IMG/VR virus record: IMGVR_UViG_3300022665_000170
Location: 1-42,346 of that record
DNA length: 42,346 nt
DNA from: a virus
Reading direction: 5' to 3' (one strand)
The notes beneath the pieces were generated by a model that saw only the letters and a list, made by a program, of their open reading frames with translations, ran no database searches and was not told where the DNA came from. Positions 5,922-25,990 of the stretch are shown here, in pieces. The first letter of the stretch is position 1, and each line of letters begins with the position of its first letter. The translations under genes and the position numbers were made by a program.

Positions 5922-6767
5922 CTAAAAATTAGTTTCGAAAAAGTTTCCTTGTTCATTTCTCAATCCGAAATCTATTCCGGAACTTCCGCCTCCACTTCCG
6001 ATTGGCGTTCCTCCTCCACCACTTCCTCCGATACCCGGAATAAAACTTCCAAGCGTTCCAGTTAATTTTAAGAGATTATTAAATCGCTGTGTATTTATCT
6101 GCTCATCAGCCAGGATTCCGGACTCTCTCCCCCTTCCAATCCCCGAAATAAGACCCTGCGCCCTTCCCGAAACTCTGTCCCTCAATTGAGATTCCAAATC
6201 GACAAGGCCGCTCGAAAGTTGCCCTTGACCCAAAGTCAATTGATTCCCCAATCCTCCGCGCCTTTCAACTCCATGGAAACCCAAGTTAGCCAAGTTTCGA
6301 TTCCTTCCGAACAGTTCACTTTCCAATTGAAGGGCAAGTTGAGGAGAAATCCTGGAAATTTCTTTCAGGGCCCCCCCGGATCCTGTTTGACCGGATGCCG
6401 CAAGTTGGCCTCGCGCTCCTCTTTCCTGCAAATCTCTTAAAGATTGAAAAACGGAACCTTGAGTGATATCCTCTAAAAATTTATTAAATCCTTCTGCCGT
6501 GGATCCTTCCCTTAAAAAAGATAGGCCCTGTTCCCCTGCCTCGATAAAAGGGGCAAAACCTTCCTCCGTCAATCCTCTTTGGCGCAGGAAATCTTCTCTC
6601 AATTGAGTTTGTTGTTCGCCGATTTTCCCCTCAGTGATACCAAAATCCGTATCACCTCGGGCGATGGCTTCTCTATTGAAAATTTGCCTTTGTTCTGCCG
6701 CCCTACGCCCTACGTTACTACTCCCTCCAAATCCAAGCGCCTTTCCAATATTGCTAAAAAATCCCAT
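5922..6767 (-). CDS. DNA transfer/ejection protein, gp7-like
   Basis: The protein opens with a Gly-rich segment (MGFFSNIGKALGFGGSS). It then has the pattern of podovirus DNA-transfer proteins: an acidic-helical part with FAPFIEAGEQGLSFL, SVFQSLRDLQERGARGQLAA and a Gly/Thr-rich TGSGGALKEI, closing with a Gly-rich tail (residues 240-265). Small ejection proteins of this kind are packaged in the head and leave before the genome. It is preceded by AGGAAAG and sits between the head-completion genes and the two large ejection proteins. Confidence 0.7.
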   Translation of the reverse strand: MGFFSNIGKALGFGGSSNVGRRAAEQRQIFNREAIARGDTDFGITEGKIGEQQTQLREDFLRQRGLTEEGFAPFIEAGEQGLSFLREGSTAEGFNKFLEDITQGSVFQSLRDLQERGARGQLAASGQTGSGGALKEISRISPQLALQLESELFGRNRNLANLGFHGVERRGGLGNQLTLGQGQLSSGLVDLESQLRDRVSGRAQGLISGIGRGRESGILADEQINTQRFNNLLKLTGTLGSFIPGIGGSGGGGTPIGSGGGSSGIDFGLRNEQGNFFETNF

Positions 6768-6776
6768 TTTCTTTCC

Positions 6777-7064
6777 TCAAGAAATAATGTTCCCGTCTTT
6801 ATATCTTCTCCAGTTTGTGCCATCGGAATATGCAGGAGTGGGTCCGCCCGTATCATCATTGACATAAATTTGGAGCGTTTGATTCTCGGATGCGGATGGT
6901 AAACTGGCTTTAACAAACTCCTCTAGCCTGTTCCTCTCGTTTGCAAGTTCATTTATTTTTAATTCAAGGTCATCGAACCAATCAATGGTCTGTTTAGCTG
7001 GCGATCCATCCTCATTAACTATAGGATCGCTCCTCTTTGGGTTGCTCGTTATTTCATCGACCAT
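6777..7064 (-). CDS. 95-aa virion-associated protein of unknown role
   Basis: The start overlaps the stop of the gp10-like gene (TAATG), so it is coupled to the head-completion genes. Residues 28-55 (IDWFDDLELKINELANERNR) look like a short coiled coil; the C-terminal third (YVNDDTGGPTPAYSDGTNWR) resembles the small beta-rich tip domain often seen at the ends of phage needle or fibre proteins. P22 carries its tail needle gp26 here, but gp26 is about 233 aa, so this may be a miniature plug/needle or an adaptor. That role is inference. Confidence 0.5.
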   Translation of the reverse strand: MVDEITSNPKRSDPIVNEDGSPAKQTIDWFDDLELKINELANERNRLEEFVKASLPSASENQTLQIYVNDDTGGPTPAYSDGTNWRRYKDGNIIS

Positions 7065-8455
7065 TATTTTATTTGCCCTATTGTTGCGGGTCGACCCCTG
7101 ATTATTAGATGATCAGCATTAAAAACTACATTTTCCCGAGTGATCAACCGGATCCCCATGAATCCCTCATAGGTTCCTAACCCCCCTGGAGGATTCCAAA
7201 CAAGTTTCTGTGCATATTGACCAATCAACCCCAAATCCTCATAAATAACCGGACCATATAGAACCCCATCCTCTGTGGTTTGAAGTCCGATTGACTGCCT
7301 TTCCCCGGCATTAAAGCCCTGGGAAACACCTAATTCCAATTCAGCCCCCGTCATGTATTCCATATTCTCCTCGGACAAAGAAGTTTCAATTATCCTTGTG
7401 ATACGGTCGCCATAATCAAAATTAACATCATCAAAGAATCCTAATTTATCCTCGAACCCGGAATAATATCTATTATCGAATTCCACAATAAAACCACCGC
7501 TCCAAGGTTTCGACACTTCATCGATCACAGTATCCAGTAAAGACCAATCGCCGCCGAAAAACAAAAAGGAATCTCTTCTTAATGTGAGGGTGGCAATATC
7601 AAATCCTAACCAGTTTATTCTCCCGGAAATCGTTTCACTTAATTCCTGATTGGTATAGGTGGAAAGAATTTTATCGATCGGCGGATTGGATAGTTTTTCA
7701 ACGCGGTTCGCGTCCATCGCAAAGATACCAGGGCTTTGGCCTGTTTTTCTTCCAACAAAAATAACAGCCTCATCAACTTCTAAAAACCCTCCAATGAATC
7801 CATAATCAAATGCGTTTCCAACAGGCTGAAATGGAAATGAGATGTTCGGCACATTCTTAAATCTCTCAACCGATTGCGTTCCCATCAAATAAAGATAATT
7901 ATCGAGGGTAAAACAAAACTTGGTCTCATCCGGTCTGACTTCCGCATCAAAAAAACTTAGGGCCTGGATCGTTCCAAAATCCCCGACATCGGAAAAAACG
8001 GTTTTATCTCCGACCACCGGAACATAAATGGCCCTTCCTCCAATCGCGGTCACACTAACAAATGGAACGAAATTAGCATTCCCGGAAGTATCGACAAGCA
8101 CATCTGATTTATCCAGGGTATAACTAGCGGAACCTCGCGCTACAATCGCAATCGTCACGGCTCCCTCAGCGGAAAAAACCTGGTCATCCCCTAATATTGT
8201 CCCAATAACCGTAAAAGCCCCGGTATCGACATCATCAATCCGCCTCAATTCCTGAGAATAAATATAATAAAGGAAGCCGTTCCATTCAAACCCTCCACGA
8301 CAAGTCCCCCCTACTACGGCTATCAAAGGGATTCCGGGGCGCGAGATAATGCTATTGCTCTTATCATGGGTATGCAACACATTCTGCAGGAGTTGATTTG
8401 TTTCAGGGAGCTTATCTATCCCCTGCGTTCCTTTAGGTAATTGAAATCTTGCCAA
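7064..8455 (-). CDS. Packaged-DNA stabilisation protein, P22 gp10-like tail hub
   Basis: A 463-aa beta-rich protein, close to the 472 aa of P22 gp10, beginning MARFQLPKGTQGIDKLPETN. Short repeats of the type GGFEWNGFLYYI and FTLDNYLYLMGT suggest a propeller-like body. It lies directly after the gp4-like gene, as in P22, where gp4 then gp10 close the portal and retain DNA. The start codon is TTG, with GGAAAGAGG upstream. It is the probable tail hub to which the spike's head-binding domain attaches. Confidence 0.75.
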   Translation of the reverse strand: MARFQLPKGTQGIDKLPETNQLLQNVLHTHDKSNSIISRPGIPLIAVVGGTCRGGFEWNGFLYYIYSQELRRIDDVDTGAFTVIGTILGDDQVFSAEGAVTIAIVARGSASYTLDKSDVLVDTSGNANFVPFVSVTAIGGRAIYVPVVGDKTVFSDVGDFGTIQALSFFDAEVRPDETKFCFTLDNYLYLMGTQSVERFKNVPNISFPFQPVGNAFDYGFIGGFLEVDEAVIFVGRKTGQSPGIFAMDANRVEKLSNPPIDKILSTYTNQELSETISGRINWLGFDIATLTLRRDSFLFFGGDWSLLDTVIDEVSKPWSGGFIVEFDNRYYSGFEDKLGFFDDVNFDYGDRITRIIETSLSEENMEYMTGAELELGVSQGFNAGERQSIGLQTTEDGVLYGPVIYEDLGLIGQYAQKLVWNPPGGLGTYEGFMGIRLITRENVVFNADHLIIRGRPATIGQIK

Positions 8456-9341: not shown

Positions 9342-10625
9342 CTAGGGAGTACCGAAACCCTGTCCAGCGAAGAATGGATTCAAAGCCGCATATGCCGGCA
9401 ATAAATCAAACCTTACTTTCTGCAGGTTCTTGGTCCCATCGGAAAACTTTGTGACTCGAATCTGTAAGCCATCCTCAGTTTCCCCGATGGTGTCCGTTGC
9501 AAAAAGTTTCTGCAAAGGAACAGAGCCAATCCCGAAAGCCTGTTTATGCCAGAACAGATTCGGTTGAACCGTGGTAGAAGCCGCCACTGACAATGTAATA
9601 ACATCATCGTCAACAGGAGCCACATCAACGGTATTATATTGACCGTTTGTTTCCTGGATAGCAGGTCCGGTCACAATAATAGTGCCGGCTCCAGCCGTTA
9701 TAGTGGCATCAGCTACAACCGTACCAACCCAAGGAACTTTGCTTCCACTTGCATCAAGCATGACTTTGCGAGTGGAAAGGTTCAATCGGTTGACTCCAAC
9801 GATTGTGACGGTTTCACCGGCGAAAATAGTAAAAGCGCCTGTAAACCCATCCACAATCAAGGTCTGGGTCATGGTATCTTTTGCCGTTACATAATCAACG
9901 GCTGGATTTCCGTTAAGCGCTCCGACTAAATCTGTTCTTGATGCGGAAGTAAAGGATTCTAGAGTTGTCGCGGTCATAACCATCATTCCCGCGAAATCCT
10001 GAGCAATTATCGCCATCTTTTGGGCTTCTGATATCAAGGCTCCTGCTGAACCACCGGCACCCAATGATCTCTGAATTTCAGCCAGGGAAACTTGAGTAAA
10101 TGGATTGACGGAATATTTCCAGTCACCGAGAGGAACTCCAGAGGACCTCATTAGAGCACCGCTGTTTGCGACTTCCGACCAACCCGTTACAGGGGTGCCC
10201 GGAATTCCTGATCTCAACCCGGAATTTCTCATCATGAATGCCGCGAAATCCACTTCCAAATCATTGACAATTCTGGTAGCCATCGGTTCCAAAAGCTGGT
10301 CAAGCTGATCCATTTTGAGAGCTTGATCGACCTGTTTGAAATCGACATTGACGGTAAAATAATTCTGGACAACTCCCTTGGCTTTACCGGTGATGATGCT
10401 ACTCTCAAGCGGAGAAACGGCGGTCAGATCACCGTCAGGAGTTCGTACGCTGACATAATCGGTAGGACGTTTGAAATTTACTTCGTCGCCACTGGCAGGA
10501 TCAAACTGCCCTTCCAGTAACTGAGTATTGACGTTCTTTGACAATACTCTGGCACTCTCGAACTTTTCCAGGAAAATCCGGATAAGTTTTTGGGTTATAT
10601 TACTATCAAAATTATTAACAGCCAT
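9342..10625 (-). CDS. Major capsid (coat) protein, P22 gp5-like
   Basis: A 427-aa protein, matching P22 coat (430 aa). It begins with an N-terminal arm and ITQKLIRIFLEKFESARVLS helix, followed by the HK97-type E-loop region (residues 45-80, with RPTDYVSVRTPDGDL) and the long spine helix. A beta-rich segment around residues 225-345 corresponds to the inserted I-domain of P22-type coats. The scaffold gene precedes it immediately and head-completion genes follow. A GGAATTAAATC site precedes the ATG. Confidence 0.85.
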   Translation of the reverse strand: MAVNNFDSNITQKLIRIFLEKFESARVLSKNVNTQLLEGQFDPASGDEVNFKRPTDYVSVRTPDGDLTAVSPLESSIITGKAKGVVQNYFTVNVDFKQVDQALKMDQLDQLLEPMATRIVNDLEVDFAAFMMRNSGLRSGIPGTPVTGWSEVANSGALMRSSGVPLGDWKYSVNPFTQVSLAEIQRSLGAGGSAGALISEAQKMAIIAQDFAGMMVMTATTLESFTSASRTDLVGALNGNPAVDYVTAKDTMTQTLIVDGFTGAFTIFAGETVTIVGVNRLNLSTRKVMLDASGSKVPWVGTVVADATITAGAGTIIVTGPAIQETNGQYNTVDVAPVDDDVITLSVAASTTVQPNLFWHKQAFGIGSVPLQKLFATDTIGETEDGLQIRVTKFSDGTKNLQKVRFDLLPAYAALNPFFAGQGFGTP

Positions 10626-10638
10626 GATTTAATTCCTT

Positions 10639-11583
10639 CTATTTATATTTCGCTCCCGGCGGCCCGCGCTGTCCTTTCTTGGATTTAATGTATCCGCCTT
10701 TGGATTTGCTTTCCGGATCGGGAGTTTTATTTATTTTCCGCTTAACTTTCTTGATTTTAGACTCGAAAACGCCCAATTCTTTTAACGCTCTCCCTGGTGA
10801 TCTGTCCAGGAGGTCGGAAAAATATTTAGCTTTTGCCTTGTCTTTCCCAAATTTATAAAAGATCAGTTCCGAATTGTCGAAAGTCTCAACAATAAAATCG
10901 GCCTTTGCTTCGCCCAATATATCGAAAGCAACCTTCTCCGTTTCGTCATAATCTTTCTTCTTTAGTTTTTTATCAAGATCAGTAGCGCGTTGATAATGTG
11001 ATTCGTAGGATTTCTCGATCTCCTTTTTCTTATCCTCGATTTTCTTTCTATGATCATCCTCGGCCCTAGCTTGCAAAATCCTCTTGTTCGCATCGATAGC
11101 CGCTTGATTAGCATGGAAGGTGTTTATATCCTTGATATAAGCAGGATCATAAGACCCACCATCATAGTTATCGGGATTAGGAGGTCCAGATTTGACACCT
11201 TGACCTTTTTGTTCCAGGAGGTTTTTATATAAATCCAACTCCTTGTTTTTTGCTTCCAGTTCGGCGTTCGCCTTTGCTTCGGACTCTTTGGCCTTCAAAG
11301 TTTCGGCATTTCGCTCGTTCATCCGGTTATGGAACTTTTGAGTCTTGAGCTCCTTATCGGATAGTCCCTCATCCCCTTCTAAAACGATTTCATATTCGCC
11401 CTCATCGCCAGAATCTTCCGAATCTTCGGAATCCTCTTCCTCCTCGCCGGGATCCTCGGTTTCCGAATCCATTGTTTCCTGGGATTCTTCCTCCTCGTTC
11501 TCCTCATCGGGATTGGTAACGTCATCAGGGTCTAACTCAAGCGTTTCCTGGTTTGAATTGGATGATTCATTCTTCTTTGCCAT
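10639..11583 (-). CDS. Scaffolding protein
   Basis: A 314-aa protein (P22 gp8 is 303 aa) directly upstream of the coat gene. The first 70 residues are extremely acidic (runs of E, D and S). Residues 75-240 are a long Lys/Glu-rich helical region likely to be coiled coil. The last 45 residues are strongly basic (KIKKVKRKINK, then KGQRGPPGAKYK), as expected of the coat-binding helix-turn-helix tail of P22-type scaffolds. The start has AAGGAG at six bases. Confidence 0.8.
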   Translation of the reverse strand: MAKKNESSNSNQETLELDPDDVTNPDEENEEEESQETMDSETEDPGEEEEDSEDSEDSGDEGEYEIVLEGDEGLSDKELKTQKFHNRMNERNAETLKAKESEAKANAELEAKNKELDLYKNLLEQKGQGVKSGPPNPDNYDGGSYDPAYIKDINTFHANQAAIDANKRILQARAEDDHRKKIEDKKKEIEKSYESHYQRATDLDKKLKKKDYDETEKVAFDILGEAKADFIVETFDNSELIFYKFGKDKAKAKYFSDLLDRSPGRALKELGVFESKIKKVKRKINKTPDPESKSKGGYIKSKKGQRGPPGAKYK

Positions 11584-11587
11584 GGTG

Positions 11588-11653
11588 TCACTCCTTGTTG
11601 TTTAGGTTTTTCGCTTCCTCAGCGATAAAGTTTTCCGCCCTTCGGCGAGACAT
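11588..11653 (-). CDS. 21-codon mini-ORF, possible gene remnant
   Basis: The frame reads MSRRRAENFIAEEAKNLNNK plus Glu, and its TGA lies within the scaffold gene's ribosome-binding site (AAGGAGTGACACC). There is no Shine-Dalgarno sequence in front. It lies just after the AT-poor/AT-rich boundary behind the DUF3326 gene, so it could be a leftover of a gene truncated when the accessory cassette arrived, or a coupling leader for the scaffold. Weak call. Confidence 0.2.
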   Translation of the reverse strand: MSRRRAENFIAEEAKNLNNKE

Positions 11654-11657
11654 GCGG

Positions 11658-12647
11658 TTAAAACATTTTTAATTGGTTAATTTTATTGGTAACTGATTCA
11701 ATTGTTACTCCAGATTTATTGGCACAAATTACTCCAATAGCCTCTAAATAATTATTTACTAAAATATCGACTCTTGAAGGCTCTTTATCAATTGCGGTTC
11801 TATTTTCTAATACACCTATTATGGGGATACCTTGTTTTTTACAAGCCCTGTGAGGCTTTCCAAAAAGGCCGGCAGGAGAAACCATGAAATCAATCTCATT
11901 ACTCCACAAAGCATGGCTATTTGGAGATAATTTGGGGGCTTTATGTGCTCCCTTTAAACAGCAATGAATATAACAAGTAGATACTAATTCAGCCGATTTC
12001 CTGGGATCAACCACCTCATTAAATGTTTTCATTACCTCACTATTTTCAATAGGAGCGTGAAACACTGGCTTATTTATTCGAACAGAAACAAACTTTGAAA
12101 GTTCCGCTTCAATGCCACCCCAGGGATTCACTCCACCCTCCCCCTGCAAATAATCTGTAACTACTTTATTATCTGTTTGAATAGGGGTATTGATTATTAA
12201 AACATCAAAATCTAAACCCTTTACCTGGGTGATCAATGATTCTATATTTTCAATCCTTCCAGAGGCTTGCCCATTAATCATTGAAGCAACCATAACCAGT
12301 GGAGTCTTAAGAGCCAATAAACTTATATCTGCTCCCATTGTTACCCTGGCAGCGTTTAGAGCATTCACGGTTTCAGAAAGAACGGGAGAATTGACAACTA
12401 CCAGGATCTTATTGCTACGCACTTCTTCAAGCCCTACATTCCCCTGTAAAAATCTATCCAAAGTAGAGCCCTCGACATAGAGCATATTTTCTGTCATTTC
12501 GTTAATATCTGAGGCATTAACTACGTTCGGATGAATAATCAATTTATCGCAAACTGAGGCAACTAATTTAGCTGCCGGCGTAGCATCCCCCGAATGCCCA
12601 CCAATTTCTGCACCCACCCCAGTAGGAACTATAAAGACTATATTCAT
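11658..12647 (-). CDS. DUF3326 family protein (accessory gene)
   Basis: The 329-aa protein begins NIVFIVPTGVGAEIGGHSGD and continues with IIHPNVVNASDINEM and NMLYVEGSTLDRFL. These are the conserved N-terminal blocks I associate with DUF3326, an uncharacterised family of bacterial genomes including cyanobacteria. Later conserved-looking blocks are GGVNPWGGIEAE, STCYIHCCLKGAHKAP (two Cys and a His), and SPAGLFGKPHRACKKQGIP. Length is normal for the family and no motif is broken, so it is probably functional. It starts immediately after the stop of the SpeD-like gene with AAAGGG upstream. Base composition is markedly AT-richer than the portal and coat genes, indicating acquisition. Biochemical role unknown. 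Confidence 0.7.
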   Translation of the reverse strand: MNIVFIVPTGVGAEIGGHSGDATPAAKLVASVCDKLIIHPNVVNASDINEMTENMLYVEGSTLDRFLQGNVGLEEVRSNKILVVVNSPVLSETVNALNAARVTMGADISLLALKTPLVMVASMINGQASGRIENIESLITQVKGLDFDVLIINTPIQTDNKVVTDYLQGEGGVNPWGGIEAELSKFVSVRINKPVFHAPIENSEVMKTFNEVVDPRKSAELVSTCYIHCCLKGAHKAPKLSPNSHALWSNEIDFMVSPAGLFGKPHRACKKQGIPIIGVLENRTAIDKEPSRVDILVNNYLEAIGVICANKSGVTIESVTNKINQLKMF

Positions 12648-13016
12648 CTAAACCCTTTCAACTATCGTTGATTTCTTGATCTTTCCATTAAAGAATTTAC
12701 TGCTATAATTTTCTGCCGTATTTTGATCGAATTCTTTACATGAAAATATATTGATATAAGCGCATTTCAGAATATCTAACGTGTGAATCGTTATATTGCT
12801 TGTCTTGATAAACTGGACCGCCGATGTTCCAATCAAATGAGGTTCAGTTTCTTTTTCGTCTTCTGGGGTTTCAAGATCGTCCCACCAAAACCTTTCACAT
12901 TTTTCCATATCAATTAATTCGCAAAGTTCATAAAAATATTTATCTAAACTTTCACGCGTAAATTTAGACGGATCGCATTCATGCAAATCTAAGATCAATT
13001 CCTTGCCATAATTCAT
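12648..13016 (-). CDS. S-adenosylmethionine decarboxylase-like (SpeD fold) protein
   Basis: The 122-aa protein has the SpeD layout: ELILDLHECDPSKFT near the start, then TSNITIHTLD (residues 72-81) and AYINIFSCKEFD (86-97). In SpeD the proenzyme cleaves itself before the Ser of an ESH motif to make a pyruvoyl group, and a downstream His and Cys assist. Here Ser73, His78 and Cys93 align with those, but ESH reads TSN (Thr72, Asn74). It could be a decarboxylase with changed substrate (phage SpeD relatives acting on arginine or ornithine have been reported, as I recall) or an inactive regulator. Its ATG overlaps the previous stop (TAATG), and DUF3326 follows directly. Confidence 0.7.
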   Translation of the reverse strand: MNYGKELILDLHECDPSKFTRESLDKYFYELCELIDMEKCERFWWDDLETPEDEKETEPHLIGTSAVQFIKTSNITIHTLDILKCAYINIFSCKEFDQNTAENYSSKFFNGKIKKSTIVERV

Positions 13017-13240
13017 TAATCGATTCCTAACTGTTGACGCAATTTATCTTTCTTCTTAAATAATTTATCCATTGTTCTGTCGCGGGCTCGATCTGGTTTG
13101 AACAACTTATCCAATTGGCCCGAAACCTTTTTCAATTCAGCCAGTTTCTTTAATTTGGTTGTGTTTCCCGTCACCGGTTTCGCTTTCTTCGGAAGCCTGA
13201 AAGGTGCGTCGCTGATTGCTCTAGTGTTTTTTTTCGCCAT
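13016..13240 (-). CDS. 74-aa basic protein
   Basis: A lysine- and arginine-rich protein (pI clearly high) with a probable helical core, KLKKLAELKKVSGQLDKLF, followed by RARDRTMDKLFKKKDKLRQQ. It overlaps the SpeD-like gene start by one base. It could bind DNA or act as a small virion component, but nothing is diagnostic. It belongs to the AT-rich block between portal and scaffold. Confidence 0.5.
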   Translation of the reverse strand: MAKKNTRAISDAPFRLPKKAKPVTGNTTKLKKLAELKKVSGQLDKLFKPDRARDRTMDKLFKKKDKLRQQLGID

Positions 13241-13258
13241 TATCTAAAGATTCTCCTT

Positions 13259-13456
13259 TTAACTTGTTTTGCAATGCATCAATGTAATAAATTTCTTTGA
13301 ACGCTCATCGGGCGAATCAGGTTTGTTAATAAAACCACATTCAAGACATTCAAATTGTACAAACTCGTCTTCACTGATAATCAAAACATGAAATTCATCA
13401 TTATCACATTTTGGACAAATAGCGCGATCTTCTGTAATACTCTTTATTTTATCCAT
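13259..13456 (-). CDS. 65-aa zinc-ribbon protein
   Basis: Two CxxC knuckles, CPKC (residues 14-17) and CLEC (37-40), separated by 19 residues form a classic zinc ribbon. Such small proteins bind nucleic acid or partner proteins. It is part of the AT-rich accessory block, with a second cysteine-rich gene next to it. The start is preceded by GGTAGAGATGGA. No specific function can be assigned. Confidence 0.55.
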   Translation of the reverse strand: MDKIKSITEDRAICPKCDNDEFHVLIISEDEFVQFECLECGFINKPDSPDERSKKFITLMHCKTS

Positions 13457-13463
13457 TCCATCT

Positions 13464-13685
13464 CTACCTCACCGTTAAACTGTATTGTTGTATTATTTTC
13501 TTTCTTCCTGATATGCCCATAAACTTTAAAACCGTTTCATTTAACTTAATGTCACATTCTCCACAAATCGGATAATACCAATTCTTTAAAGAACATATTT
13601 GCCATTGATACTGTGCCGGCTCACCACAACGTTCACATTTTTTTCTACCAATTCCAATGAAAGTATAAGGTTGTTTCCTAGCCAT
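13464..13685 (-). CDS. 73-aa zinc-finger-like protein
   Basis: Paired CERC (residues 17-20) and CGEC (41-44) with an extra Cys at 31 suggest a zinc-binding fold; the sequence between is aromatic (YQWQI, NWYYPI). It lies just downstream of the portal gene with GGAG upstream of the ATG. Many phages carry such small Zn proteins of unknown role. Neighbouring genes are the second zinc ribbon and the portal. Confidence 0.55.
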   Translation of the reverse strand: MARKQPYTFIGIGRKKCERCGEPAQYQWQICSLKNWYYPICGECDIKLNETVLKFMGISGRKKIIQQYSLTVR

Positions 13686-13703
13686 AAACTCCGATCCCTT
13701 TAT

Positions 13704-15839
13704 TTAAGATGCCTTTTGTTTAAATCCTTTAAAGAATGTATCCCGCGCCTTCTCCCTGGCTGTGAGATTCGCTTTCTCTCTTTCGACTCCAACCTCCGAC
13801 AAGGTTTTCTCAGTATTGGCGGCCTTGTTCTTCGCTTCCTCAATTGATTTCACGGTATCGGCTCTCAACTTCTCAGCGTTCGCGTTCTTTTCAGTGGCAA
13901 TAGCTGTCAAGGCCTCCGCTTCCGGATTGGGTTGTTGCTGTTGAGCCTGTTGGGCCTGTTGAACTTGCGCCAGGAATTCCTCATCTTCTTCCGTTTCAGG
14001 TTTGATCGTGCCGTTCGCTAAGCCTTCTTTCCTGATCTTATCTTTAACGGTACCCAATCCCAGGGATGGCGAAAGGGTGATAACCTCTTTCAAAATTTCC
14101 AATCCAAGCGCCTGGGCTTCCGGTGTTTGAATCTGCGTAACCACTCCAACCGTACTCAATCCATCCTCAACGGCCTGTTCCCGCTCGCTCTCATAGGATG
14201 GGCCGGTATCCGATCGAACCATGAATTTCTTGTTATCCAACCGATTGACCTCCTCAAGTTCTCCGGTTTCGTCGTTGAACTTCTGTTCCATAATCTGCTT
14301 TCGTCCTTCCGTTCCGTCCCGACTCAATATCCGGACGGATTGCTGACTCGAAAATATCTCCTGAGCCATAGAAGCAAAGACCACTCCCATCCACTCCGTT
14401 GATTTAGCAATATGCTGAGTTAAAACCAGCGTGTTCTCGTCAATCTTTTTGGTTAATTTCTGAATAGCTTTCCCAGATAAATCCGAATCAAGGATCTCCT
14501 GCGGAGGAGCCCCGCTGATATCCCTCATTTGGGCGGTGATTAATTCGATCAACTGGACCGCGTTTTGGTCTGCTTGTGGAGGAGGAGTCCAACCCACCGC
14601 GCCCTGTGGGTTTAATAACTCGCCTTTAGGGGAATAAACAGGATCAAACTCCAGGAATCCTTGATTGCTTCTATCCGCCCAAGCGACCCTATAGTTGGGA
14701 TCTTCAAGGGCTCCTTTTGGATGAATAGGAATCTGTGCGCTTGCGGTATGGGCATCCTCCGCAATTTTGGAGGCGAGGGTATTCATCAGGGTTTGACGAT
14801 CCCGGACCTTACGAATCAATCCATAATAGATTTCTCCCATTTCATCCGTAAACGCCCAATATGCGTAATAGGGAATGATCGGAATAAATTTACCCACTAT
14901 TCGAACAGGGTCTTCTAGAAATTCCGTTCCACTGAAAACCGACTTCTCAATCCATTGAGTTTTGACTTTCTTTTTCCCGACAAATTTAAGATCACGATTG
15001 CGCCTCAATTCATTCTTTCTCTTCTTAAATTCCCGCGCCTGGAACCTTTCCATCAAGCCCGTTGATCGATTAAAGAACCTATGAACAAACTCAAACCTTT
15101 GGACGATTTGATATCGTTCGGCAATGAAAAGTATCTCCTCGCCGTTAAGCTTGAATCGCCTTTGGGTTATTTCCTTTGGATCAAAAGCGGAGGAGGGAAT
15201 ATGTCCCGGATAGGCGGCTTTGAATGAATCATCCGTAAACATCTTCAAAACGGTACAGTGCATAGCATCCCGTTTATCAGACCGCATCGCCCCGGCATCC
15301 CAAATAACCGTATTGTAGGAATTGATTACAGGTTCGAAGATGATCTCTTGTTTATCGTTATTTCCATCTTCCTCATCCTCAAACTGGGTGCTTAACTGAA
15401 CCGATCCATTCCCACAGGTAGCCATTTCGTCAATCGCCAGGGTCACGGACTCGACCCCGGAATTCTCATCAAAGGAAGAACGAAACATCCCGTTCATCAA
15501 CTCCGCATCATCATCCGAAGTCGCTTCGTCCTTTGCCTTATATTCCACGCTCACCGAGTTATTTATCTGCCGACCGACAAACTTATTCTTGAAATCAGTA
15601 ACGATATCGAATTCAAGTCGGATTCTATTTGCCAAATTCCCGTTTGCGTCCGAAGTGCCAAAGATATCCTGGTCATCCCATTGACCACCCTTATCGTTGA
15701 CGAACGACATATCATCTGCAGCATATCCTCTTTGGTAATAACTATTATCCGCATCGGCCCCCAAGCTGACCTTATAGGATTGGAACTTGGTTTCCAGGTC
15801 TGCCCCGTCTGCTTTGTCGTTTATTATCTTACTTTCCAT
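13704..15839 (-). CDS. Portal protein, P22 gp1-like
   Basis: A 711-aa portal (P22 gp1 is 725 aa). Family features include the N-terminal block FKNKFVGRQINNSVSVEYKA, the central GKFIPIIPYYAYW segment, the RKVRDRQTLMNTLASKIAED helix and the DISGAPPQEILDSDLSGKAI loop typical of P22-type portals. The last 100 residues are a long Gln/Glu/Ala-rich helix (the barrel region). It overlaps the end of the large terminase by 16 bases. It forms the dodecameric DNA channel. Confidence 0.85.
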   Translation of the reverse strand: MESKIINDKADGADLETKFQSYKVSLGADADNSYYQRGYAADDMSFVNDKGGQWDDQDIFGTSDANGNLANRIRLEFDIVTDFKNKFVGRQINNSVSVEYKAKDEATSDDDAELMNGMFRSSFDENSGVESVTLAIDEMATCGNGSVQLSTQFEDEEDGNNDKQEIIFEPVINSYNTVIWDAGAMRSDKRDAMHCTVLKMFTDDSFKAAYPGHIPSSAFDPKEITQRRFKLNGEEILFIAERYQIVQRFEFVHRFFNRSTGLMERFQAREFKKRKNELRRNRDLKFVGKKKVKTQWIEKSVFSGTEFLEDPVRIVGKFIPIIPYYAYWAFTDEMGEIYYGLIRKVRDRQTLMNTLASKIAEDAHTASAQIPIHPKGALEDPNYRVAWADRSNQGFLEFDPVYSPKGELLNPQGAVGWTPPPQADQNAVQLIELITAQMRDISGAPPQEILDSDLSGKAIQKLTKKIDENTLVLTQHIAKSTEWMGVVFASMAQEIFSSQQSVRILSRDGTEGRKQIMEQKFNDETGELEEVNRLDNKKFMVRSDTGPSYESEREQAVEDGLSTVGVVTQIQTPEAQALGLEILKEVITLSPSLGLGTVKDKIRKEGLANGTIKPETEEDEEFLAQVQQAQQAQQQQPNPEAEALTAIATEKNANAEKLRADTVKSIEEAKNKAANTEKTLSEVGVEREKANLTAREKARDTFFKGFKQKAS

Positions 15840-19591: not shown

Positions 19592-22500
19592 TTATTCTCT
19601 AGTATTAATTGTTGCATAGGTCATTGTTATGCCACTGGATCCGGAATTCCTGGTAATCAATGGCTTTATTAAATCTCCGCGGAACGCTTGCACTGCGAAT
19701 GTTTTAGTAACACTTTGAGCATCACTTCCGACGGCCACCAAAACTTCTACAGGATCCGGAAGATCCACAAAACCACTTCCCCGGTCTATTTGAAATTTGA
19801 ATCTAAAATCAACGGTTCCGCCTGAGCTCTCAACCGTAAAATCGAATGTAATCCATCCATCAAATTTAGCATCAGCTATAGATTCAAATGTGCCATTGAT
19901 TTCATCAACCATCCTCCACTTTGCCATCGTAGTGCTGGCAATTAAAGCGTTCCCCGTTATACCAAATACCAAATCCGTAAAAGTATTATTAACTATTGCT
20001 CCAACCGGCGTGGAATTATCATTTACAAAAGCAGAAGCCAAAATAATTGAACTTGATATTCCCACATTATCAGTAGCATTTATTCTTGTATCAGTTTCAT
20101 CGAGACTTAAATTTATTTCAATAGTGCCGCTGTTTGTTGATTTAAAAGATCCGCTAACTGTGACAAAATCGCTAACAACCTCTAATACCGTATAAAAAGC
20201 GTTATAGAAATTTGTTCCAAGAACTTTAATGCTGTCTCCCGCAAGGATCGAATGCCCAGAAGCTAAATTAAAAATAAGTCTTTGAACATTTGCCAAACCC
20301 GTAGCATCATCTCCCGAAAATGGTTTAATAATGTCGAAAGATACGCCGGGTATCACATTAAATATTTGGAAAGTCCCATTGTAATTTGTAGTTCCTGTTA
20401 TCGTTAGGGTTTCATCCGTAAAATAATTTGTTATGCAGGAAACAGTGGTTCCCCCCTGGAAGTTATCAGCCATTTCAGTAATAGTTCCTGCAGCTGGAGT
20501 CGAACCACCAACACTATTGATGATTGCTAGTGGAATGGTAGTTTGTTCAAATATATTTCCACCGAGAGCTACACAATTAGTTATAGAAAAAATAGGAACA
20601 TCAAAATTAATGCGTGTATTAAAATCAAATACTGATCCAGTTGCCGTTGTCGTATTGAGGATTGCAGTAAAAGTCGCGGCAGATAGCGGATTATTTGTGT
20701 CAATAGTAAGCAACGGGCCGGCCATAGGAACACCGAAATGAGCGATATTAAATACTGATATCGTTGTGTTATTGGTAAGTGAAAAACCAGTGGTAATAGA
20801 AAGGAGGGTAAGAAATCTTAATAGAAAAATACCGTTATCGAATTGGCCTAGAGAAGTCCATCCAGCCAGGGTAGCTAGATTGATATTTAAAAAACCACCC
20901 GGAGCGCTTAAATTTAAAAGCACACCTGTAGAGCCGCTGGAAATAGTTATTGCCCCGGAAATAAAAAGACTCCCTCCGCCAGTAAATAATGCGCCACCTC
21001 CGACATAAACCAACCCGACTCCCGCTTGATTTAATCCTGTGAGATTTAATGCGCCACCAGTTAGGACAAATTGAGTCGCGGTAATTACGGTAATATTAAA
21101 AACTAAAGTTAGATTAGTGCCTAGGGGAACAAAAATAATTCCTCCACTGGCCAAGACCTCAAAATCTTCGTTAGTATTGATTTCGACAATAGAAGGAGGT
21201 TTTGAGGAACGCTTAAACCAAGTCGTTCCTGTTGTAAGTTCTTTGCTTTCATATTCCCCGGATAATCCACCATTCCCTCTAATATATGTATCGCCTCCTG
21301 CGCCCGTAACATTTCCATTAGGAGTGCGATTCCCTACAAACTTATTAGAAACCCCAGGATTAGAACCTGTGTTTTTAATTCTGCCTATTGGGAAAGTGTC
21401 ACCATTTGGAAAAGTAGAAAATGAAGTTAGGCCACTGATATCACCATCTGAATGAATGCCATGCGGGCCAGCATTCAAGCCCCCCGCGTATAAGTCCCCT
21501 TTTATTACTGCTTCATTGTCTACCGAAAGATAGCCAGCATTTACATTTCCTATGGAAGCGGTTGGAGCTTCAATGCCATTAAGGTCTATTACCGCGAACC
21601 TGTCAGTTGCGCTAGATAAGATATATGCAAATTTGCCAGAGACATGGATTGCGCTAAGATCGCCAAGGCCAGCCGGAAAACTATGGGTAATGACAGGAGC
21701 CGTTGGACCAGATATGTCAATTACTACGATTGATTCTGCTGAACCTCCCGTTGTAACGTAAGCATAATTGCCATCAATAGAAAGAGACTCGGGCGCATCC
21801 AGAATAGAACTGAAAACACTTCCAACCAATGCGGGAGTAGTCGGGTCGGAAACATCAATTATTGCTAGGGAATCGGTAGCACGACCAAGAATATAAGCAT
21901 ATCTTCCAACTACATAAATATCTGTTGGACTATTTGTAATCCCCACCAGGTTTAAATCCCCAACTATTACAGGAACAATGGGGTCTGAAATATCAACTAT
22001 TTTTAATCTTGAGGATCCAAGGGTAACGTAGGCGAATTTACCTAGAACATACATTTCTTCCGGTATTGAAAAATTAAGGGCATCTATCAAACTACCGGCT
22101 AATACCGGATCGTTAGGATCGGATATATCAATTACGGCGAGAGAATTTGAATTTCTGCCCAAAACATAACAATATTTACCAGCAACATACACTGAAGCTG
22201 CTGAGTCCAGCGTAGCACTATCCACCAAACTGGAAACAAAGGTAGGATTCGAAACGTCTGATACGTCTACTATCACCAGGGAGTCATTAGTCACGGATGA
22301 AATATAAGCGTATTTCCCGGCAACAATAATATGGCTGGGACCCCCTAAATTACTAGTATCAAGCAAAACCCCCACCAATACAGGGGATGTTGGTTCCGTA
22401 ATGTCCAATATAGAAATAGAATCTGAAATACCCGCACTGATAACATAGGCATAATTATTTACTATGTATAAATTCCTGGGAGCGTCCATATTAGTGCTAT

Positions 22501-25500
22501 CTTGCAGACTTCCCAACAGCATAGGAACAGAAGGAACTATTTTAAAATCCCCACTGGCGCTTATACCACCATCTGAATGGATTCCATGAAATCCAACATT
22601 CAAACCGCCTGTAGTTAAACTACCTTTTATCTGGGCATCATTATTTAAAGAAAGATTTCCTGCTGATAAATTACCAATATTAGCTACCGCAACATCAAAG
22701 CCGCCCAAGTCTATTATTCCAAATATATCTAAATTTTGACTTGTAGAATAACCATATTTCCCTGAAATATAAAAATCCTGGCCGATCCCTGTTGGGAAGG
22801 CATTTATTATCACCGGATTTAATCGATCAGTTATATCTATAATTACGATATTCCCAACCAAACGATTAACATAAGCGTAGTTACCACTAATTTTTACAAT
22901 CTGTGGGCGATCTAAAACAACGCTATCGATTATTGAACTAACTATGACAGGAGTAGTGGGGTCGGAAATATCGATAATAGCAAAAGAATCTGCTATATCA
23001 CTTACAACATAGGCATATCTTCCAACCACATAAACATCGGTTGGTAAAATCAGGATAGTTCCGCTTGAGACAGAGCCAGTTATAAAAGGAGAAGTGGGAT
23101 CGGATATATCTATTACAAATAATCGGTTGGAATTCGTTGTTACATAAGCATATTTACCTAAAATATAAATACCTGATGCCAGTCCAAATGATCCATCTGT
23201 TAGATTACCCACCACAAAAGGAGAAGCGGGATCAGATATATCTACCACTGTAAAACTGCCGCCGGCAACATAAACAAACTTCGCGGCAACATAAATATGA
23301 GCAACATTACTTAAGGTTACTGCATCAACCAATGTTCCGACTAAAATCGGATTGGCAACATCGGAAATATCTATAACACTAAGAGAATCTGAATTATTCG
23401 ATCCAATGTAAGCATATTTTCCGCTAATAAAAAGGCTTACTGGAGCATTAAAATTTATGGCATCGACTAAAATACCGACAATAAATGGTGCTTTCGGATC
23501 ACTAACATCAATAATAGTAAGAGAATCTCCTATGGTGCTGGTAACGAAAGCATAATTACCAACAACAATAACATCCTGCGCCCCATTGAGATTCACGTTA
23601 TCGATCAGAGTTGATACTGTAAATCCGTTGGAGGGAATAGTCGTTAATGATCCTTTATTGCTTATATCTCCATTGGCGTGAATTCCCTGTAATCCAACAT
23701 TCAATCCGCTTGAATGCAAAACACCAGCTACCTGGATATCATTATTAACTGAAATGTTTCCTGCAGAAAGATTTCCAATATTACCGGTTGCTACATCGAA
23801 CCCACCTAGATCGATAATTCCAAATGCGTCTGCTACTGAATCTGTTAAATAAGCATATTTTCCACTTATATAAATTGGGCTTCCGAACGTACCGAGTCCA
23901 GTTGCAAAACTATTTAGGATTACTGGATTCGTTCGATCAGTTATATCTATAAGAACAATCGTAGTGTTTCTTCGTACTGTATAGGCATAATTTCCACTAA
24001 TAATTACGGTTTCAACTGTGTCTAAGAGAACGCTATCGATTATGGAACTAACAAAGGTAGGTGTTGTAGGGTCAGAAATATCAAAGATAGAAAAAGAATC
24101 ACCGGTAGATGAAACAATATAAGCGTATCTTCCCACTACATAAATATCGACTGGCCCATTCAGGTTTACCGCATCAAGAACAGAACCAACCTCAACAGGA
24201 GCGGCAGGATCAGAAACATCAACAATAGTCAATCTATTTGATATGCTTGTTACAACATAGGCAAATTTCCCTAAAACAAAAATACGACCTACATCAGTCA
24301 AATTAGTCGTGGAAATACTGCCAACTAAAATAGGATTGTTCGGATCAGAAATATCTATTATTGCTAAAGAACCAGATGTACTTGAAACTACATAAGCATA
24401 TTTACCAGCAACATAAAGAGCTTGCGGTGTTCCCATATTAGTTGCATCGGATATTGTCCTGGCTACGAATGTCGGAGCGGAAACATCTGAAACATCTACA
24501 ATAGCTATCGAATCAAGCCCAAATAATGCAAGGTAGGCATACTTTCCGCTGACAAAAATATCGATTGGAACTTGCAAATTTACAGCATCAATTAAAGATC
24601 CCACAACGAATGGCACATTCGGATCGCTGACATCAATAATAGCGATAGAACTTCCAGTTGAACTATTAACATAAGCGTAGTTATCAACTACAAAAACCTT
24701 ATCTGCTCCATCGAGATTCACGCTGTCGATCAAAGTTGATAAGACAACTCCACTGGAAGGAATAACATCAAGCGCCCCAGGTATTGTTAAATCATTGCCA
24801 TCCGGAGACATAAAAATATTGCCAATATCAACTGTCTGAGCTCCGTCTCCTCTTACTAGAAAATTATCTGTTAAAGTTCCAGGAGTCGTAACGCCACCGG
24901 CCCCATCAAAGACAGAATCCCACCCCGTAGTGTTCGATGAGGTTGATCGTTTAATAAAAAGATCACTATCAAGACCATTGACGCGCCAGTAATGATCTCC
25001 CGCCGCCCCCGTTATCAATCCTTCGGGATCCCTTGTTCCCACTAAAGTAGTAATTCTCGCGCCATTCGTTCCCAACGATTCCATCATGCTTACCGGAACC
25101 GTATCATTTTCTGAGGAAGAAAGAAAAAATTGGGCAAGAGGATTAGTTGAATTAAATCCTATAAATCCTGTGCTGGTATCAACAAAAATATCATCCCCAT
25201 TAAGAGAAATGTCACCACTTGCATTGATTAGCAAATCAACTTCTGACTGAATTACTACATCATCTGCACTTGCATCAAATTTAATAGTTAATTTTGGGAC
25301 ACTACTCGAATTGTTTATTTGGAAAACTGGATCTCCAAATATCTGCTGCAACGTCAAATTGGCAAAGGAAGGACTGTTTATAGTGTCTAATGCCTGTCCA
25401 AACTCGATACCGTCTTCGGCTAAAGTTACTTGGAGGGAAAGTCCTGCCTGACCTGAATAAGTAGAAGGCGTATCCAAGAGTTCAATGAATTCATCAAATG

Positions 25501-25990
25501 CTTCTGTGCTCCCCAATACCCAATCAGTGTTAGTTAAACCTTCTGCCACATACAATAAATTGTTGGTCGAATCCCAATAAAATTCACCAATAATTCCAGG
25601 CGTAACAACACCGTTCGGATCCCCGCCGCTGACAAAAGTCCTGGCTATATGTAACTGATCGCCAGAAAGTTGACTATGGCTATCCGGAGTGACTGCCGTA
25701 TCAAATTCAAGGGCATTTTCTGCTTGATTTACTCTTGGGAAAAGTCCAGCCTGACCTGAGTAACTGTTTGGAGTATCGGTTAGCTCAATAAACTCATCAA
25801 ACTCATTACTTGAACTTACCCAGGATGTATTTAAAAGGCTCTCTGCTACATATAGTAAATTATTTGTAGAATCCCAATAGAACTCGCCAATAATAGTAGG
25901 CGTAACTACGCCATTAGGATTACCGGTACTAACAAAAGTACGGGCTATATGTAATTCGTCTCCGACAAGTTGACTGTGAACACTGCCCAT
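19592..25990 (-). CDS. 2132-aa fibre/adhesin with three LVIVD beta-propellers
   Basis: Order: two tandem copies (residues about 20-190) of a module holding IIGEFYWDSTNNLLYVAE; a TRDPEGLITGAAGDHYW region near 320; then three propellers at about 410-735, 790-1105 and 1150-1480. Each propeller has seven LVIVD-type repeats of the form GKYAYVVSS...LAIIDISDPTTPVLVGS. After each comes a similar linker (IGNLSAGNISVNND, then a GIHSDGDIS-like motif). Residues 1490-1950 are Gly/Thr/Asn-rich and look like a beta-solenoid; the end (KWRMVDEINGTFESIAD onward) is a beta C-terminal domain. LVIVD repeats are known from bacterial surface and secreted proteins. A receptor-binding fibre is the best reading; it is the largest gene of the genome. 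Confidence 0.75.
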   Translation of the reverse strand: MGSVHSQLVGDELHIARTFVSTGNPNGVVTPTIIGEFYWDSTNNLLYVAESLLNTSWVSSSNEFDEFIELTDTPNSYSGQAGLFPRVNQAENALEFDTAVTPDSHSQLSGDQLHIARTFVSGGDPNGVVTPGIIGEFYWDSTNNLLYVAEGLTNTDWVLGSTEAFDEFIELLDTPSTYSGQAGLSLQVTLAEDGIEFGQALDTINSPSFANLTLQQIFGDPVFQINNSSSVPKLTIKFDASADDVVIQSEVDLLINASGDISLNGDDIFVDTSTGFIGFNSTNPLAQFFLSSSENDTVPVSMMESLGTNGARITTLVGTRDPEGLITGAAGDHYWRVNGLDSDLFIKRSTSSNTTGWDSVFDGAGGVTTPGTLTDNFLVRGDGAQTVDIGNIFMSPDGNDLTIPGALDVIPSSGVVLSTLIDSVNLDGADKVFVVDNYAYVNSSTGSSIAIIDVSDPNVPFVVGSLIDAVNLQVPIDIFVSGKYAYLALFGLDSIAIVDVSDVSAPTFVARTISDATNMGTPQALYVAGKYAYVVSSTSGSLAIIDISDPNNPILVGSISTTNLTDVGRIFVLGKFAYVVTSISNRLTIVDVSDPAAPVEVGSVLDAVNLNGPVDIYVVGRYAYIVSSTGDSFSIFDISDPTTPTFVSSIIDSVLLDTVETVIISGNYAYTVRRNTTIVLIDITDRTNPVILNSFATGLGTFGSPIYISGKYAYLTDSVADAFGIIDLGGFDVATGNIGNLSAGNISVNNDIQVAGVLHSSGLNVGLQGIHANGDISNKGSLTTIPSNGFTVSTLIDNVNLNGAQDVIVVGNYAFVTSTIGDSLTIIDVSDPKAPFIVGILVDAINFNAPVSLFISGKYAYIGSNNSDSLSVIDISDVANPILVGTLVDAVTLSNVAHIYVAAKFVYVAGGSFTVVDISDPASPFVVGNLTDGSFGLASGIYILGKYAYVTTNSNRLFVIDISDPTSPFITGSVSSGTILILPTDVYVVGRYAYVVSDIADSFAIIDISDPTTPVIVSSIIDSVVLDRPQIVKISGNYAYVNRLVGNIVIIDITDRLNPVIINAFPTGIGQDFYISGKYGYSTSQNLDIFGIIDLGGFDVAVANIGNLSAGNLSLNNDAQIKGSLTTGGLNVGFHGIHSDGGISASGDFKIVPSVPMLLGSLQDSTNMDAPRNLYIVNNYAYVISAGISDSISILDITEPTSPVLVGVLLDTSNLGGPSHIIVAGKYAYISSVTNDSLVIVDVSDVSNPTFVSSLVDSATLDSAASVYVAGKYCYVLGRNSNSLAVIDISDPNDPVLAGSLIDALNFSIPEEMYVLGKFAYVTLGSSRLKIVDISDPIVPVIVGDLNLVGITNSPTDIYVVGRYAYILGRATDSLAIIDVSDPTTPALVGSVFSSILDAPESLSIDGNYAYVTTGGSAESIVVIDISGPTAPVITHSFPAGLGDLSAIHVSGKFAYILSSATDRFAVIDLNGIEAPTASIGNVNAGYLSVDNEAVIKGDLYAGGLNAGPHGIHSDGDISGLTSFSTFPNGDTFPIGRIKNTGSNPGVSNKFVGNRTPNGNVTGAGGDTYIRGNGGLSGEYESKELTTGTTWFKRSSKPPSIVEINTNEDFEVLASGGIIFVPLGTNLTLVFNITVITATQFVLTGGALNLTGLNQAGVGLVYVGGGALFTGGGSLFISGAITISSGSTGVLLNLSAPGGFLNINLATLAGWTSLGQFDNGIFLLRFLTLLSITTGFSLTNNTTISVFNIAHFGVPMAGPLLTIDTNNPLSAATFTAILNTTTATGSVFDFNTRINFDVPIFSITNCVALGGNIFEQTTIPLAIINSVGGSTPAAGTITEMADNFQGGTTVSCITNYFTDETLTITGTTNYNGTFQIFNVIPGVSFDIIKPFSGDDATGLANVQRLIFNLASGHSILAGDSIKVLGTNFYNAFYTVLEVVSDFVTVSGSFKSTNSGTIEINLSLDETDTRINATDNVGISSSIILASAFVNDNSTPVGAIVNNTFTDLVFGITGNALIASTTMAKWRMVDEINGTFESIADAKFDGWITFDFTVESSGGTVDFRFKFQIDRGSGFVDLPDPVEVLVAVGSDAQSVTKTFAVQAFRGDLIKPLITRNSGSSGITMTYATINTRE

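Follow-up and report, generated by a model that had tools for sequence, protein, structure and literature searches.

The window, the whole 42-kb virus record analysed here (IMGVR_UViG_3300022665_000170, 42,346 nucleotides), carries a small insertion of two genes, about 1.4 kb in all, within a P22-type head operon. The first gene encodes a SpeD-like homologue of pyruvoyl decarboxylases with intact catalytic residues and the second encodes a protein of the DUF3326 family. SpeD-DUF3326 is a conserved module that recurs in dozens of unrelated viruses. In cells, DUF3326 is found behind either a SpeD of the window's type or a decarboxylase of an unrelated family, and in some operons the two genes lie 3' of PtuA-PtuB-like genes of the Septu kind. 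We read SpeD-DUF3326 as a mobile, amine-forming enzyme pair common to phages and Septu-like operons, and place the probability of this reading at about 0.45. The swap between unrelated decarboxylases, together with the Septu-like operon position, provides the first concrete functional lead for DUF3326, namely an amine metabolite.

The head operon and its insertions

The head module of the window lies on the minus strand and encodes TerL, portal, scaffold and coat, in agreement with the P22-type flanks recognised in the initial annotation. The phage also has an integrase gene. Five small genes occupy the interval between portal and scaffold. The GC content of this five-gene stretch is 36.4%, against 44.6% and 46.2% in the flanks, and ranks in the lowest ~1% of the window's 2-kb stretches. 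The AT-richness first described from hand counts (28% at 11701-11760 and 45% at 14041-14100) is therefore real, and both counts are exact. GC3 is 0.47 in the gene for a small basic protein, like the head genes, 0.30-0.33 in the SpeD-DUF3326 pair and 0.23-0.30 in two genes for putative zinc ribbons. A promoter belonging to the cassette was rejected, as promoter-like sites are little above shuffles (14 vs 8.5 +/- 3.0).

The initial annotation had treated the five genes as a single cassette. This is ruled out by a sibling phage, L262, represented by one IMG/VR contig of 17.7 kb with a sibling head operon. Its portal protein is 85% identical to that of the window, and the DNA is 79% identical along portal-TerL. 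The gene order of L262 is portal, basic gene, scaffold, and the contig has neither the zinc ribbons nor SpeD and DUF3326. Because the basic gene stands between portal and scaffold there and the rest is absent, the window contains two insertions that flank a native gene (Table 1). Homology between the window and L262 ends at the stop codon of the basic gene and restarts at 11650, so that SpeD-DUF3326 is a clean insertion. The stop of the basic gene overlaps the SpeD start. The putative zinc ribbons give weak matches to zinc-ribbon models, every one below cut-off. The idea that they or the basic gene belong to the module was rejected, since the 16 viral loci compared first contain no homologue of any of the three. 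Elsewhere in the window, a 2132-aa protein (19592-25990) has several long repeats of the 'AYVV....IDISDP..P' type that appear propeller-like by eye; it is presumably a tail fibre or adhesin.

Table 1. Positions of the head-operon genes, insertions and predicted catalytic codons in the window.
Feature	Position	Strand	Basis
P22-type scaffold (context)	10639..11583	-	phrog_648 E 2e-14
SpeD-DUF3326 insertion, ~1,365 bp, absent from L262	11651..13015	-	blastn and junction sequences
Second gene in the pair, DUF3326 protein of 329 aa	11658..12647	-	PF11805 E 2.5e-73; AF2 pLDDT 94
First gene in the pair, SpeD-like homologue (122 aa) of pyruvoyl decarboxylases with class 1b AdoMetDC fold	12648..13016	-	PF02675 AdoMet_dc E 3.6e-12
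Cys93 codon (T. maritima C83)	12738..12740	-	1tlu alignment; Cys in 63/64 window-type rows
His78 codon (T. maritima H68)	12783..12785	-	1tlu alignment; invariant in 83/83
Ser73 codon, serine predicted to form the pyruvoyl group (T. maritima S63)	12798..12800	-	1tlu alignment; Ser in 83/83 homologues
Native gene of the head operon (portal-scaffold interval) for a small basic protein, outside the insertion	13016..13240	-	L262 orthologue 10153-10374, 54% identity
Second, separate insertion (approximate bounds) with two putative zinc ribbons, 13259-13456 and 13464-13685	13241..13703	-	absent from L262; weak zinc-ribbon matches
P22-type portal (context)	13704..15839	-	PF16510 E 2e-94

The SpeD-like and DUF3326 proteins

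The SpeD gene ends in TAG and the ATG of the DUF3326 gene follows immediately, so the two genes abut as originally described. The family assignments proposed for both have also held. The SpeD-like protein scores 47 bits against PF02675 (gathering score 25), which places it in the superfamily, and matches phrog_3125 'S-adenosylmethionine decarboxylase' at E 4e-14. Its AF2 model (pLDDT 97) is matched by Foldseek to the Thermotoga maritima AdoMetDC structures 1vr7/1tlu with TM 0.75 and E 2.6e-8 to 7e-8. In the alignment of 64 proteins of the window's SpeD type, Ser73 and His78 are each conserved in 64/64 and Cys93 in 63/64.

Phage SpeD homologues with AdoMetDC, arginine decarboxylase or ornithine decarboxylase activity are known experimentally (PMC9992855). 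For the window protein, SAM is an unlikely substrate on sequence grounds. It scores 26.9 bits against TIGR03330, the equivalog of bona fide AdoMetDCs, where the cut-off is 75.65. The catalytic His lies in HTLD rather than the HTWPE of 1tlu, so that Leu-Asp-x stands in place of Trp-Pro-Glu. The Pro after this His is reported to be fully conserved in bona fide AdoMetDCs but not in arginine decarboxylases (PMC10407285, Li et al.). The SpeD of Sinorhizobium phage phiN3 also lacks this Pro and yet has reported AdoMetDC activity (PMC9992855); residue rules of this kind can therefore fail. The SpeDC ornithine decarboxylases have four diagnostic residues, Gln, Thr, Phe and Tyr (PMC10407285 Fig. 8). 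With the positions placed by inference, the window protein has the Gln (Gln68) and the Thr (Thr72), Thr79 where SpeDC-like rows have Phe, and a Tyr site at position 87 that is mostly Tyr/Phe in its subfamily. The site that is Phe in 18/19 SpeDC-like rows is Thr in 44, Ala in 9, Ser in 5 and Cys in 3 of the 64 window-type rows. Trp45 is invariant in the window's subfamily, and the SpeDC-like rows have a gap there.

The DUF3326 protein matches PF11805 over model positions 2-336 of 337 with 247.5 bits (gathering score 25) and is thus a full-length member of the family. We know of no member with a known activity. The AF2 model (pTM 0.91) reads as two Rossmann-like halves. A fold search of the PDB with this model gave no convincing relative (Foldseek best E 1.9e-4, TM 0.31), and a VIA search reached Z of at most 8.7, with unrelated Rossmann-like folds such as UGT, lumazine synthase and arylmalonate decarboxylase. 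The structure search of viral models returned nothing below E 1e-3, the search of PDB sequences gave no match, and tblastn at E 1e-5 found no DUF3326 in GenBank phages. Across 93 homologues, including those of cyanobacteria, P8, T9, G10, G16, P40, N41, N44, E180, H197, E220, Y300 and E302 are invariant. Such a set of residues would fit the active site of an enzyme. A search for a nucleic-acid-binding signature in the protein gave none.

Pairing in viruses and in cells

The first IMG/VR searches returned 6 loci with the DUF3326 query and 13, in part the same, with the SpeD query. Both genes were present in 6/6 and 11/13 of them. Wider alignment-based searches of IMG/VR gave 58 DUF3326 loci, 53 of which have SpeD, and 80 SpeD loci, which were split by profile score into 41 of the window's type and 39 SpeDC-like, the latter with Phe following the catalytic His. 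DUF3326 is present in 33/41 window-type loci and in 0/39 of the SpeDC-like (ornithine-decarboxylase-like) loci. Of 49 distinct viral pairs, 48 begin with SpeD; the two genes share a strand and mostly overlap or lie within about 10 bp of each other (-4 to +7). These counts derive from searches that started from the pair itself, some loci duplicate a contig, and IMG/VR contigs are frequently incomplete. Among records searched whole, which may be fragments, seven have a window-type SpeD without DUF3326 and five have DUF3326 without SpeD. The functional link between the two genes that had been suspected from a single locus is strongly supported by this recurrent adjacency. Their distances over 60 loci agree weakly (Mantel r 0.21; 20/5000 permutations as high).

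The other neighbours of the viral pair vary by contig. The commonest cluster besides the pair is terminase (6 loci), and terminase or portal genes, of several unrelated families, are the closest sizeable neighbours in at least 8 more viral contigs. The pair is also found in many non-structural contexts, and most viral pairs have no recognised defence gene nearby. Individual loci vary in layout. DUF3326 comes first in L126, a gene that is GIY-YIG endonuclease-like by eye lies between the two in L105 (7411-7998), and L243 is a prophage-like locus with the pair. A window-type SpeD is fused at the C-terminus of large viral proteins of 1236 aa (L135:4273-7983) and 617 aa (L130:5467-7320), with DUF3326 directly after.

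Cells of the Marinimicrobia, Aminicenantes, Chloroflexota, Pseudomonadota and Desulfobacterota have a long-form DUF3326 of ~450 aa with ~85 extra N-terminal residues. No long-form protein was found on plasmids. It lies immediately behind a window-type SpeD in L042, L045, L047, L236, L237 and L238, and immediately behind an NspC-like PLP decarboxylase in L044, L231, L232, L234, L235 and L048/L049. SpeD and NspC-like partners interleave within one clade of a quick DUF3326 tree. Because the non-homologous PLP enzyme replaces SpeD in cells, the true partner of DUF3326 is best described as an amino-acid decarboxylase. The strongest argument for DUF3326 working with the product or the substrate of the decarboxylase is that enzymes of two unrelated families occupy one and the same slot. 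In L042, a gene of the glutathionylspermidine-synthase family (PF03738, GSP_synth; 6093-7738) lies directly upstream of SpeD-DUF3326.

DUF3326 occurs without an adjacent decarboxylase in cyanobacteria, planctomycetes and relatives, and three genomes with such a solo DUF3326 have no window-type SpeD anywhere. The solo proteins of planctomycetes, Verrucomicrobia, Armatimonadetes and a Lokiarchaeota MAG (L024-L040, L043, L094) form one clade nested among viral SpeD-linked proteins, which suggests transfer followed by SpeD loss. Three loci of Aminicenantes and Chloroflexota (L233, L240, L241) have divergent DUF3326 proteins of ~420-440 aa between NRPS genes and no adjacent decarboxylase. A gene near that of L241 is amidinotransferase-like by eye and has no Pfam match.

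The order PtuA-PtuB-decarboxylase-DUF3326, with frames overlapping or nearly abutting, is found in L022, L235, L237 and L238. Versions cut by a contig end are L236, with PtuB at the contig start, and L247, with PtuA-PtuB-NspC-like at the contig end. A decarboxylase thus lies directly behind PtuA/PtuB-like genes on six contigs in all, of which L236 has only PtuB before its end, L238 has a PtuA fragment, L022 was called by blastp homology, and L247 was called by PADLOC model for PtuB and by sequence for PtuA. PADLOC E-values are 4e-62 and 3e-57 for PtuA and 1e-31 to 5e-55 for PtuB. A strong PtuB is present in 4/148 genomes of the Marinimicrobia-type phylum, and a decarboxylase lies right behind it in 4/4. 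DUF3326 is present in 6/148 of these genomes, three of which are among the four with strong PtuB (overlap counted by genome, Fisher p 1.5e-4). The operon of L022 (4172-7604) has SpeD and a short, phage-type DUF3326 and comes from a Thermoplasmatota MAG contig, which, like L018-L021, may be misbinned or viral. Its SpeD has lost the catalytic Cys and has Phe at the site. In a Myxococcota locus (L242:8988-11407), DUF3326 adjoins a gene for a CAP12/Pycsar-type TIR effector.

A tblastn search with the proteins of the Septu-like operons found no PtuA/PtuB homologues in the window, and none were found in the viral loci. The window thus does not encode a Septu system and carries the partner half alone. 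Our search of the open-licence PMC literature found no paper linking Septu with a decarboxylase, and PtuA-PtuB-decarboxylase-DUF3326 is a Septu-like variant that we found described nowhere in it.

Proposed function and known systems

In the proposed mechanism, the SpeD-like protein would cleave itself at Ser73 to form a pyruvoyl group. It would then decarboxylate an amino acid, which is probably not SAM and most likely basic. DUF3326 may convert that small molecule in the step that precedes or follows decarboxylation, and an amine would be the product. The polyamine or amine metabolism proposed in the initial annotation survives in part. The partners of DUF3326 are SpeD-like or NspC-like decarboxylases of polyamine-enzyme families, whereas SAM decarboxylation for spermidine does not fit the TIGR03330 score and the missing Trp-Pro-Glu. 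The Septu connection makes defence or counter-defence a serious alternative, and the phage role we prefer is host takeover or counter-defence, in which the phage would supply the non-nuclease half of a Septu-like operon. This step is plausible but tentative, and taken alone it is somewhat unlikely. A more specific version is unlikely: an undescribed Septu type would have SpeD/NspC-DUF3326 as its small-molecule half, for immunity or control, and phages would carry only this half, a metabolic antidote with which to disarm the host system, as a form of counter-defence via amine synthesis.

The main rival derives from the position in the head module and assumes late expression with the head genes. 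The product of the pair, a polyamine or a similar amine, would neutralise the DNA in packaging or support translation, a form of late auxiliary metabolism. This is possible though not probable. A packaging role is compatible with the data, and the location between portal and scaffold keeps the idea alive, as do the terminase or portal neighbours of unrelated families elsewhere, the known activities of phage SpeD homologues (PMC9992855), a decarboxylase swap that stays within polyamine-enzyme families and the GSP_synth-family gene in L042. However, the pair also occurs in many places away from structural genes, the Septu-like operons are without packaging genes, and no spermidine synthase was matched among the scanned window proteins. 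The ornithine-decarboxylase-like phage SpeDs carry no DUF3326, and ordinary putrescine production therefore does without it.

It is improbable that the amine becomes a modification of tRNA or phage DNA that blocks nucleases, PtuAB-like or other, with DUF3326 as the enzyme that attaches or activates it. In two studied systems the PtuAB effectors cleave tRNA-Tyr (PMC11555353, PMC13096335), and the pair is placed with PtuAB as a protect-and-cut system would be. Solo and NRPS-linked DUF3326 proteins argue instead for small-molecule chemistry, no nucleic-acid-binding signature was seen in DUF3326, and the fold search is uninformative. The integrase of the window phage, the prophage-like locus L243 and the defence-like operons would fit a prophage-borne weapon against competing phages or plasmids, but no nuclease of the Septu kind or other killing component lies beside the pair in viral loci, and we consider this quite improbable. 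That SpeD is an ordinary ornithine/arginine-decarboxylase auxiliary gene with DUF3326 as a hitchhiker is highly unlikely in spite of the Gln and Thr that it keeps among the SpeDC residues as placed here, and the Tyr/Phe that its subfamily mostly has, since the SpeDC Phe is mostly Thr (44/64) and since the pairing far exceeds hitchhiking across unrelated viruses and cells and survives the swap to a non-homologous decarboxylase.

The enzyme pair proposed here resembles several known systems in part. With the phage AdoMetDC, SpeDA (ADC) and SpeDC (ODC) homologues (PMC9992855, PMC10407285), the window protein shares the phage setting and, as predicted from its sequence, the class 1b fold and the self-processing Ser, the His and the Cys. 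It differs from them as a separate subfamily, with Trp45, with Thr/Ala/Ser instead of Phe following the catalytic His and without Trp-Pro-Glu. Its linkage to DUF3326 separates it further from SpeDC-like phage loci. The PLP enzyme that replaces SpeD is closest to the NspC carboxynorspermidine decarboxylase (TIGR01047); its scores of 214-318 bits are below the equivalog cut-off of 409, and its substrate is therefore probably different. Cyanobacteria have a fed3-DUF650-DUF3326 cluster (PMC4284462). The cyanobacterial protein has the same domain, is 30-35% identical and keeps the invariant PTG, PN..N, E and H residues, but has no adjacent decarboxylase in the loci examined. In Septu type I, formed by the PtuA ATPase and the PtuB HNH protein, and in retron I-A, or Septu type II (PMC8565338, PMC11555353), the core proteins are homologous to those that precede decarboxylase-DUF3326 in cells (PADLOC E 1e-31 to 1e-62). 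The extra Septu gene reported by the PADLOC authors is a reverse transcriptase (PMC8565338), whereas the additional genes here are a decarboxylase and DUF3326, and phages carry only this half. This adds a Septu operon layout that is absent from the literature searched and suggests that phages carry part of it, in which case a single gene pair may unite auxiliary metabolism with counter-defence.
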